A DNA stretch of 64,000 nt from Bifidobacterium sp. ESL0790 (GTDB lineage Bacteria; Actinomycetota; Actinomycetes; Actinomycetales; Bifidobacteriaceae), in the NCBI RefSeq assembly GCF_029395435.1, contig NZ_CP113915.1, positions 868,001 to 932,000 of the forward strand. The letters are read 5' to 3'. Both the position numbers and the translations under genes were made by a program. A model generated the notes under the pieces. The model was not told the DNA's origin. It ran no database searches and was given only the letters and a program-made list of their open reading frames with translations. Numbering within the stretch: the first letter of the stretch is position 1; each line of letters begins with the position of its first letter. Shown one piece after another: positions 55,190 through 62,563 of this stretch.

Positions 55190-55227
55190 CGTGGACACTT
55201 TTTGGGAGCCTTTAAAAAGTGTCCACG
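55190..55227. repeat. First of two matching palindromes
   Basis: Perfect 14-base arms CGTGGACACTTTTT/AAAAAGTGTCCACG with a 10-base loop, 7 bases after the phosphatase stop. A smaller GGGG...CCCC hairpin lies between it and the second palindrome. Confidence 0.85.
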
Positions 55228-55272: not shown

Positions 55273-55310
55273 CGTGGCCACTTTTTAAAATCCTCAAAAA
55301 AGTGGCCACG
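55273..55310. repeat. Second palindrome, covarying with the first
   Basis: Perfect 14-base arms CGTGGCCACTTTTT/AAAAAGTGGCCACG with a 10-base loop. It differs from the first only at one arm position and its partner (A-T to C-G), so pairing is retained. The loops differ. Either element could terminate transcription. Confidence 0.85.
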
Positions 55311-55446: not shown

Positions 55447-56766
55447 ATGAGCAACATATTCACCTGGAAACTGCATGGCGACGGCAAGACCCTGAATCCT
55501 GGTGAGGTGGTCGACCCCGACGAGCGCATGACGTGGGGCCGAACGGCGGGCATTGGCGCCCAACACGTGATCGCGATGTTCGGCGCGACGTTCCTGGTGC
55601 CGATACTGACGGGGTTCGACCCGTCCACGACATTGTTCTTCACGGCGATGTCGACGGCGTTGTTCCTGTTGATCAACAAAAATGAGCTACCCAGTTATCT
55701 GGGTAGCTCATTTGGTTTTATAGCCCCGATCGTCGCGGTGAGCACCGCGCACAAGGGCCTGGCGGTGGCGAGCTTCGGCATCATGGTCACCGGTATGCTC
55801 CTGGCGCTGGTCGGCCTTCTGGTGCACTTCGCCGGTGCCAAGTGGATCGACATCATCATGCCGCCGGTGGTCAACGGCGCCATCGTCGCCATCATCGGCT
55901 TCAACCTCGCCCCCTCGGTGTGGAACAATTTCCAGAAGGCGCCCGACACCGCCGTCGTCACCCTGGTCGCCGTCCTGCTCATCGCCGTGCTCTTCAAGGG
56001 CCTCATCGGCCGCCTCAACATCCTGCTCGGTGTGCTGGTCGGCTACGCCTACGCCTGCCTGCGCGGCCAGGTCGACTTCGCCGCCGTTGGCAGGGCCCAG
56101 TGGGTCGGCATCCCGCAATTCCACCTGCCCCAGGTCGACTTCTCCGTGCTGCCCATGTTCATCCCGGTGGTCATGGTCCTCATCGCCGAAAACGTCGGCC
56201 ACGTCAAGTCGGTCGCGCAGATGACCGGCCGCAACTACGACGACCACATCGGCACCGCGCTCTTCGCCGACGGCCTCGGCACCACGATCGCCGGCTTCGG
56301 CGGCGGCTCCGGCACCACCACCTACGGCGAGAACATCGGCGTGATGGCCGCCACCCGCGTCTACTCCACCGCCGCCTACTGGTGCGCGGCCGCCTTCGCC
56401 CTCATCCTCAGCCTCTGCCCGAAGTTCGGCGCGGTCATCAACACCATCCCGGCCGGCGTGCTGGGCGGCGTGACTACCCTGCTCTACGGCATGATCGGCA
56501 TGGTCGGCGTGCGCATCTGGGTCGACAACCAGGTCGACTTCGGCAAGCCCCTCAACAACATGACCGCCGCGGTCACCATGATCATCGGCATCGCCGACTT
56601 CGGTTTCGCCATCAGCGGCGTCAAGTTCAACGGCATCGCCATCGGCACCGTCGCGGTCCTGGTCATGTACCATGGCCTGCGCGCCATCGGCCGCGCCACC
56701 GGAGCCATCGCCAAGGACGATGACGGACTGAAGAAGCCCGAGCCCAGCGAGTCCGAAGGCAAGTGA
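55447..56766 (+). CDS. uraA: Uracil/xanthine permease (NCS2 family)
   Basis: Product of 439 residues with about 14 spans, a uracil-type member of the nucleobase-cation symporters. The conserved motif ELPSYLGSSFGFIAPIV and the helix region IAENVGHVKSVAQMTGRNYD, with AGFGGGSGTTTYGENIGVMA, carry the substrate-binding residues. ATG 55447 has AGGAG 8 bases upstream. A perfect 15-bp hairpin lies within the coding sequence at 55680-55713 and uses rare codons. Confidence 0.93.
   Translation: MSNIFTWKLHGDGKTLNPGEVVDPDERMTWGRTAGIGAQHVIAMFGATFLVPILTGFDPSTTLFFTAMSTALFLLINKNELPSYLGSSFGFIAPIVAVSTAHKGLAVASFGIMVTGMLLALVGLLVHFAGAKWIDIIMPPVVNGAIVAIIGFNLAPSVWNNFQKAPDTAVVTLVAVLLIAVLFKGLIGRLNILLGVLVGYAYACLRGQVDFAAVGRAQWVGIPQFHLPQVDFSVLPMFIPVVMVLIAENVGHVKSVAQMTGRNYDDHIGTALFADGLGTTIAGFGGGSGTTTYGENIGVMAATRVYSTAAYWCAAAFALILSLCPKFGAVINTIPAGVLGGVTTLLYGMIGMVGVRIWVDNQVDFGKPLNNMTAAVTMIIGIADFGFAISGVKFNGIAIGTVAVLVMYHGLRAIGRATGAIAKDDDGLKKPEPSESEGK
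55680..55720 (+). promoter_or_regulatory. Terminator-like hairpin inside the uracil permease gene
   Basis: AAATGAGCTACCCAG (55680-55694) and CTGGGTAGCTCATTT (55699-55713) pair without mismatch around TTAT and are followed by GGTTTTAT. Rare codons CTA, AGT, TCA and ATA are used here in a gene that otherwise prefers C/G-ending codons. It is 78 codons after the start and fits an intragenic attenuator. Confidence 0.75.
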
Positions 56767-61415: not shown

Positions 61416-61648
61416 CGTCGAGTTCCTTTCGTCCGCTGTTCCTTGGTTCCTGTATCGGCCCGCGTGCCCGGGCCATAGCGTCACATGACCACTCCACTAT
61501 AGTCAGTCGGCGCGGCCCTTGCCAACGTTCCGGGCGGCGGCCGGATGTGAGATATTCGTCAGTCGCAAGACGGGGATACGCTAAACTGTCTGTTGTTCGC
61601 AATCATGGCGTGATGATTGCAATCTTGGGGTAAATGGAGGTATTGCTG

Positions 61649-62563
61649 ATGGCGGCAGGGAAGGGCATGCGGCTCAAGGCGTTGAAGTTCGTCTTCCCCA
61701 AAACCCTCCCGATCTGCGTGAGCTTCATGTTCACCGCCATGTCCTATGGCCTGCTGATGTATTCCAAGGGGTTCCCGTTCATCTATCCGGCGCTCATGGC
61801 CGCCTCGATCTTCGCCGGCTCAATGGAGTTCGTGCTGGTCGACCTCTTGGTCAGCGCCTTCAACCCGTTCGCGGCCTTCATCCTGACTTTGATGGTCAAC
61901 GGCCGCCACTTCTTCTACGGGCTTTCGATGCTCGGCCCCTACCGCAACATGGGCTGGAAGAAGCCGTTCCTCATCTTCTGGATGTGCGACGAGACCTTCG
62001 CCATCAACTCCTCGATGAAGGTGCCCAAAGACATCGACCGAGGCTGGGCCTACCTGTGGGTGTCGATGTTCGACTACTCCTATTGGGTCACCGGCGCCAT
62101 GCTCGGCTGGCTCATCGGCGGCATCCTACCCTTCAGCACCAAGGGCGTCGGGTTCGCCATGGTCGCCATGTTCGTCTCGATCCTGCTCGACCAGTGGAAG
62201 GCCTCGCCGCACACGTTCCGCGGGCACATCCCCGTGCTGGTGGGCCTGGCGACCTCCGTGATCGCCCTGGCGATCTTCGGCCCGCAACGCTTCATGTTGC
62301 CGGCGCTCGTGGCCATGTTGGTGATTTTCGAGCTGCTGCGGCCTTATCTGGAGAAGCCGCACGATGAGGGCTCTCTTGACGGCACAGATACAGGCAATAG
62401 TACGGATATCGGCATGAGCGAGAGTACGAATAGCGCGGATAGTACGGATAAAACGGGCAATACAGACAGTACAAAAAATCCAGGAAATACCGATAATTCA
62501 ACCAATCCGGATAATAAGGAAACCACTACGGAAACGGCGACGACGAAGGAGGTGGTGCGATGA
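61649..62563 (+). CDS. azlC: AzlC-family branched-chain amino acid exporter, large subunit
   Basis: Product of 304 residues with about 6-8 spans. Features are LPICVSFMFTAMSYGLLMY, SIFAGSMEFVLVDLL, and MVNGRHFFYGLSML. A C-terminal tail of about 70 residues is Thr/Asn/Ser/Asp-rich and not part of the family. The start ATG 61649 is 8 bases after GGAGG. It overlaps azlD by 4 bases (ATGA). Confidence 0.92.
   Translation: MAAGKGMRLKALKFVFPKTLPICVSFMFTAMSYGLLMYSKGFPFIYPALMAASIFAGSMEFVLVDLLVSAFNPFAAFILTLMVNGRHFFYGLSMLGPYRNMGWKKPFLIFWMCDETFAINSSMKVPKDIDRGWAYLWVSMFDYSYWVTGAMLGWLIGGILPFSTKGVGFAMVAMFVSILLDQWKASPHTFRGHIPVLVGLATSVIALAIFGPQRFMLPALVAMLVIFELLRPYLEKPHDEGSLDGTDTGNSTDIGMSESTNSADSTDKTGNTDSTKNPGNTDNSTNPDNKETTTETATTKEVVR

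Follow-up and report, generated by a model that had tools for sequence, protein, structure and literature searches.

The pyrBI attenuator of E. coli depends on the coupling of transcription with translation and senses UTP. The hairpin element analyzed here, located within the uraA gene of a Bifidobacterium, resembles the pyrBI attenuator of enterobacteria in that a terminator-like hairpin is overlapped by a translated frame (codons 78-89 of uraA), and both hairpins precede the end of a pyrimidine gene, where a ribosome would block their folding. Unlike pyrBI, the uraA element has no separate leader peptide, the overlapping frame being uraA itself, its tail is interrupted by GG, and its response to UTP is putative. 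Regarding terminators located inside genes, those of E. coli are active if the ribosome falls behind the polymerase and are kept silent by a closely following one (PMC4824070), and some bacteria face premature termination behind a runaway polymerase as a general hazard (PMC13323073). We regard the hairpin as part of a cis-acting RNA element in the uraA frame and, tentatively, the element as most likely an in-gene attenuator that would lower the output of the transporter.

Host Gene and Hairpin

The window, i.e. the whole 64-kb stretch of DNA that was analyzed, is part of a Bifidobacterium chromosome of 2.25 Mb, the near relatives of which in a species-level collection include ESL0784 and ESL0682; B. 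commune is also close. In a profile search, the uraA protein exceeded the cut-off for the NCBIfam NCS2 superfamily, with the best scores for RutG and uracil permease, and Pfam PF00860 was also matched. The nearest solved structures are those of bacterial UraA, with the motif of which NKNELPSYLGSSFGFIAP aligns. The coordinates of the gene and of the parts of the element are collected in Table 1.

Table 1. Location of uraA and of the parts of the hairpin element in the window; holders are the uraA genes that keep the element, as defined in the text.
Feature	Positions	Strand	Description
uraA	55447..56766	+	ORF, ATG at 55447; NCS2-family uracil permease; host gene of the hairpin element
AT-ending/rare codon block, codons 77-92	55675..55722	+	Sharply bounded; third-position profile, holders vs. 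non-holders
Left arm	55680..55694	+	AAATGAGCTACCCAG; core 55685-55694, AGCTACCCAG
Loop TTAT	55695..55698	+	AGT-TAT in most holders, replaced in four distinct family sequences
Right arm	55699..55713	+	CTGGGTAGCTCATTT; core 55699-55708, CTGGGTAGCT
U-rich tail TTTGGTTTTATAGC	55711..55724	+	Ends in the invariant rare codon ATA (55720-55722)

A perfect 15-bp hairpin extends over 55680-55713, starting at the last base of codon 78 and running through codon 89, with GGTTTTATAGC directly on its 3' side; hairpin, TTAT loop and tail, 78 codons into uraA, match the description in the earlier note exactly. In the mRNA, this corresponds to a 15-bp stem, a UUAU loop and then GGUUUUAUAGC. The fold reaches -28.4 kcal/mol (z = -7.9 against dinucleotide shuffles) and ranks first in stability among the 16,017 in-frame 33-nt coding windows of the 64 kb. 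It can be observed that the stem is stable and GC-containing with a short loop, as is expected of an intrinsic terminator, and a terminator scan detected the hairpin as the hit with the largest number of stem pairs in 12 kb. Eight holders were folded with the leader and the first 100 codons included, and the hairpin formed in every one of them. Pattern searches found neither half of the hairpin elsewhere in the genome, where it is unique. ARAGORN placed no tRNA at the site, and mimicry of a tRNA D-arm (GGUAGCUC..UUGGU..AGC being similar to a tRNA 5' half) was rejected, since the positions that match U8 and A14 of tRNA vary.

Other structures were seen upstream of uraA. Tandem palindromes of the form GTGG(C/A)CACTTTTT-N-AAAAAGTGNCCAC are located at 55190-55227 and 55273-55310, just before the gene. 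Eight of them occur in the genome, six as three pairs approximately 80-130 bases apart; their pattern resembles that of a dispersed paired-palindrome repeat, and they were not found upstream of uraA in the relatives read. In the uraA leaders of Gardnerella (L144, L150, L195, L152), a structured stretch is present approximately 60-90 bases before the start, followed by a terminator-like hairpin of the classic type with 6-10 U (GCGCTCAACGAGTGCTTGTTTTTTTTTT), which hints that uraA is attenuated in its leader there. No Rfam match was obtained in the Gardnerella uraA leaders searched.

Contribution of the Protein Motif

Part of the stem comes free with the protein. The codons for LPS-Y-LGS, CUN CCN AG(Y UAY) CUN GGN AG, are already nearly self-complementary and account for most of the stem bases at codon positions one and two, so that a hairpin is cheap at this place; in several relatives one can form although their codons are not special in any visible way. 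All six core pairs are found in 11/75 distinct non-ATA sequences, and among the non-ATA sequences Pro3-Leu3 also covaries weakly. These facts, together with 16-codon GC3 dips of similar depth elsewhere in the window, which make the dip at the element not unique, are what would be expected if the hairpin had no function and merely reflected a self-complementary protein motif combined with codon drift in the region or with a recombination tract passed on by descent. The tests below were confined to the features that the protein leaves free, namely codon choice and third positions. The absence of function is strongly disfavored: rare codons are fixed in two branches whose base compositions are opposite, paired positions changed together several times on the tree, and the borders at codons 77 and 92 are sharp. 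A recent recombination tract, the alternative named in the earlier note, is likewise disfavored, given that the AT-rich block spans codons 77-92 alone, that the element recurs in several genera of the family including the AT-rich Gardnerella, and that it was retained while paired bases changed together.

Covariation of Silent Sites

In the survey of the family, 153/189 genomes carried the motif, and 54, from 6 genera, carried the ATA tail, giving 32 distinct 38-mers. Two pairs of the stem, Leu3-Gly3 and Pro3-Leu3, consist of four-fold synonymous positions. The states of Leu3-Gly3 were A-U (16), G-C (9) and U-A (5), with 2 exceptions, and those of Pro3-Leu3 were C-G (12), U-A (6), A-U (3), G-C (1) and U-G (7), with 3 exceptions. 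Watson-Crick pairs were seen in 30/32 cases at Leu3-Gly3, compared with approximately 12 when partners were shuffled, and in 22 at Pro3-Leu3, compared with approximately 11; cells changed on both sides numbered 24 vs. 5.7 in shuffles, which ignore relatedness. Relatedness is taken into account by the tree count: on a tree of the proteins from which the element had been left out, the pair state of Leu3-Gly3 changed at least 8 times and either side alone 7 times, so the two positions move together.

At the covarying sites, A-C pairs were never found (approximately 7 expected) while G-U pairs were tolerated, which suggests that the structure acts in sense-strand RNA, an asymmetry that is supportive rather than decisive as it arises partly from base composition and is also present in non-holders. 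With the same supportive weight, it speaks against a hairpin acting in minus-strand RNA, which was rejected. The covariation also bears on the idea of a DNA-level site, in which a protein would bind the palindrome inside the gene. The palindrome is indeed near-perfect in several species; however, four different base pairs occupy one stem position, so that structure rather than sequence is kept, G-T mismatches are tolerated where A-C are not, and a second copy was not found in the genome. Such a site is thus very unlikely.

It is strongly supported by these comparisons that silent positions have been selected to hold an RNA stem. The earlier note had proposed such synonymous selection and pointed to stem covariation across related genomes as a check; the proposal is borne out by compensatory changes at the two four-fold pairs in many lineages, and by conserved rare codons being confined to the element.

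Codon Choice in Holders and Non-Holders

For codon choice, 111 uraA genes were read, 109 from the genus and 2 from other Bifidobacteriaceae. Thirty-six of them, termed holders, keep the stem, the AGU-UAU loop and the UUUGGU-YUY-AUA tail. The ten core pairs, AGCUNCCNAG/YUNGGNAGCU, are complete in 35/36 holders, with a single mismatch in the remaining one (1/36). The codons AGT, AGC, TTT, GGT and ATA are each present in 36/36 holders, compared with 2/75, 7/75, 4/75, 13/75 and 0/75 non-holders, respectively. ATA partly defined the group of holders, yet all 35 genes with a complete core stem carry it, so the link between stem and ATA is not circular. When synonymous codons were shuffled, the stability of the window copy was reached in 0.4% of shuffles, and the mean z was -3.1 for the 36 holders vs. 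-0.4 for the 75 non-holders.

All 439 codons of uraA were scanned for positions both conserved and rare. Such positions were observed solely at codons 81, 83, 89, 91, and 92 in the Bifidobacterium holders and solely at 83, 86, and 92 in Gardnerella, and there were none in non-holders. The conserved rare codons are CTA, AGT, TTT (twice) and ATA. The earlier list of unusual codons is therefore correct for CTA, AGT and ATA but not for TCA, which varies among TCA, TCG and TCT. In Gardnerella and in pooled holders, silent sites are most conserved at the element, whereas in the Bifidobacterium holders alone the element ranks second to codons 345-360. This other region, codons ~345-360 (window ~56479-56526), forms a second conservation peak in holders and non-holders. 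Elsewhere, the deepest 16-codon GC3 dip of the window lies in the last 30 codons, at the 3' end of the ORF 61634-62563, the tail of which is repetitive and rich in Thr/Asn/Ser/Asp.

The U-Rich Tail and the Loop

The tail was scored by the U-richness of the 15 bases after AGCUC. The mean score was 4.0 in holders vs. 2.6 in other species, between a random-like floor of 2.45 and the ceiling of 4.8 (4.78) that is allowed by Ser-Phe-Gly-Phe-Ile. The window copy, with the tail UUU-GG-UUUU-AUA, scores 3.15, and others reach up to 4.73. The holder tail is near the maximum U-richness that the protein allows, save for AUA where AUU would be expected. The final A of AUA is unexplained by a terminator and is explained by a pause at rare codons. 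A site of mRNA processing or stability would also leave something aside: a stem-loop cut by a double-strand nuclease, or shielding the upstream fragment, could set the lifetime of uraA mRNA, and the stem, which is stable, stands alone and covaries as sense RNA would, suits such a site, but the near-maximal U-rich tail 3' of the stem and the ATA codon would then have no explanation. This reading is unlikely.

In four distinct family sequences, stem and tail are kept with a different loop, implying that the loop is not essential. A pseudoknot between loop and tail (GUUAU with AUAGC) was rejected for the same reason. Two further candidates, a programmed frameshift and a small +1-frame peptide ending at the UAG of AUAG, were discarded, since no slippery site is conserved and stops break the +1 frame in Gardnerella and B. 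commune.

Proposed Function

The comparison of homologues demonstrates, at the level of sequence, a stem-loop with a U-rich tail kept by silent-site selection in part of the Bifidobacteriaceae. The favored picture of its action is an imperfect intrinsic terminator that would be masked by translating ribosomes. While ribosomes move close behind RNA polymerase, they would cover the hairpin, and full uraA mRNA would be made. If the polymerase ran ahead of the ribosome, because translation is poor or, as with the pyrBI leader, because UTP is abundant, the hairpin would fold behind the polymerase, and the U-rich tail would cause the polymerase to pause and partially terminate, giving less transporter. 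Here we infer termination, coupling to translation and any pyrimidine link, and tuning by UTP is possible by analogy.

A stem, a 4-nt loop and a U-rich stretch directly on the 3' side resemble the anatomy of a terminator, which counts in favor of the attenuator, as does the restriction to a single gene in a family without PyrR. PyrR exceeded the curated cut-off in 1/189 family genomes (G175:C15:41905-42429), which is not that of the window; the remaining genomes gave weak PyrR matches as general phosphoribosyltransferases. With PyrR missing from the family bar this one genome, the uracil permease must be controlled otherwise. A correlation of the element with PyrR loss is uninformative, PyrR being missing in holders and non-holders alike. 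Several facts count against the attenuator: the tail is interrupted by GG and its score in the window copy is moderate, AUA is invariant where AUU would be more U-rich, close-following ribosomes should normally silence a terminator at approximately nt 233-266 of uraA (PMC4824070), and most of the genus lacks the element. It is doubtful that the element goes as far as a leaderless, translation-gated attenuator that senses the race between polymerase and ribosome, and thereby the UTP supply, and replaces PyrR in part of the Bifidobacteriaceae.

A programmed ribosome pause, ranked nearly as good as the attenuator, is possible but uncertain. The hairpin and the slow codons AGT, TAT, TTT, GGT and ATA would brake the ribosome over codons 77-92 while the first membrane helix emerges from the exit tunnel, so that the transporter would gain time to be targeted and inserted. 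Both the GC-rich Bifidobacterium and the AT-rich Gardnerella seldom use ATA and AGT, which are nevertheless fixed at the element; the fixation of ATA, in particular, is left unexplained by the terminator model. By a simple hydropathy scan, the first hydrophobic segment covers approximately residues 34-56, and codon 92 lies about 36 codons past it, so that conserved slow codons (83, 92) are found approximately 35-40 codons after a membrane helix, as a pause of this kind calls for. However, a general aid to insertion would be expected in many membrane proteins, and conserved rare codons and the motif were found at a single site, by the uraA scan and genome pattern searches, respectively. Hairpins are also easily opened by ribosomes, and Gardnerella retains the tail even though it uses TTT, GGT and CTT as ordinary codons.

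Distribution and Significance

The element is present in the bee-associated group of the window and in B. bohemicum, B. bombi, B. commune, B. aemilianum, B. minimum, B. subtile, B. tibiigranuli, and Gardnerella; it is missing, for example, in B. catenulatum subsp. kashiwanohense and B. ruminantium. The trait requires 3 changes on the genus tree and 7 on the wider tree, and it looks old, with several losses. The same protein motif is written with ordinary codons in 75/111 uraA genes; such homologues, which the earlier note held would speak against its proposal, do exist, but the other 36/111 keep the stem and the rare codons, and the element is thus lineage-restricted rather than a property of the protein family.

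The element provides a clear case of bacterial silent sites whose covariation preserves an RNA structure within a conserved protein motif. Should it act as an attenuator, the gene would carry its own regulator in its reading frame, and a control of uracil uptake that can be tested would be at hand for PyrR-less bacteria. Should it pause ribosomes, it would be a well-marked case in nature for studying how codon choice aids the entry of a transporter into the membrane. Under either reading, the covarying pairs and the natural non-holders are ready-made controls.

Comparison with Known Systems

At the gathering score, no Rfam match was obtained, with sub-threshold chance hits for the window region and no hit for nine named relatives, and no description of the uraA hairpin element was found in the literature searched. 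PyrR-dependent attenuation, which acts on pyr and uracil permease genes, has the same kind of target gene; unlike it, the uraA element is inside the gene rather than in the 5' leader, and the genome of the window has no PyrR above the curated cut-off. Intragenic intrinsic terminators share the stem, the short loop and, less clearly, the U-rich 3' tail; unlike them, the uraA element is kept across species by silent-site covariation, and its termination is putative. Rare-codon clusters and translational pause sites (PMC5438181; membrane-protein targeting pauses) are similar in their position-specific conserved rare codons, those of uraA being located approximately 35 codons after a membrane helix, as in membrane-protein pauses. 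Unlike known pause sites, the uraA codons are coupled to a covarying hairpin, and pausing is putative. The element belongs with known kinds, namely terminator-like attenuators and pause sites, and is unusual in lying wholly inside a transporter gene and in being revealed by silent-site covariation.
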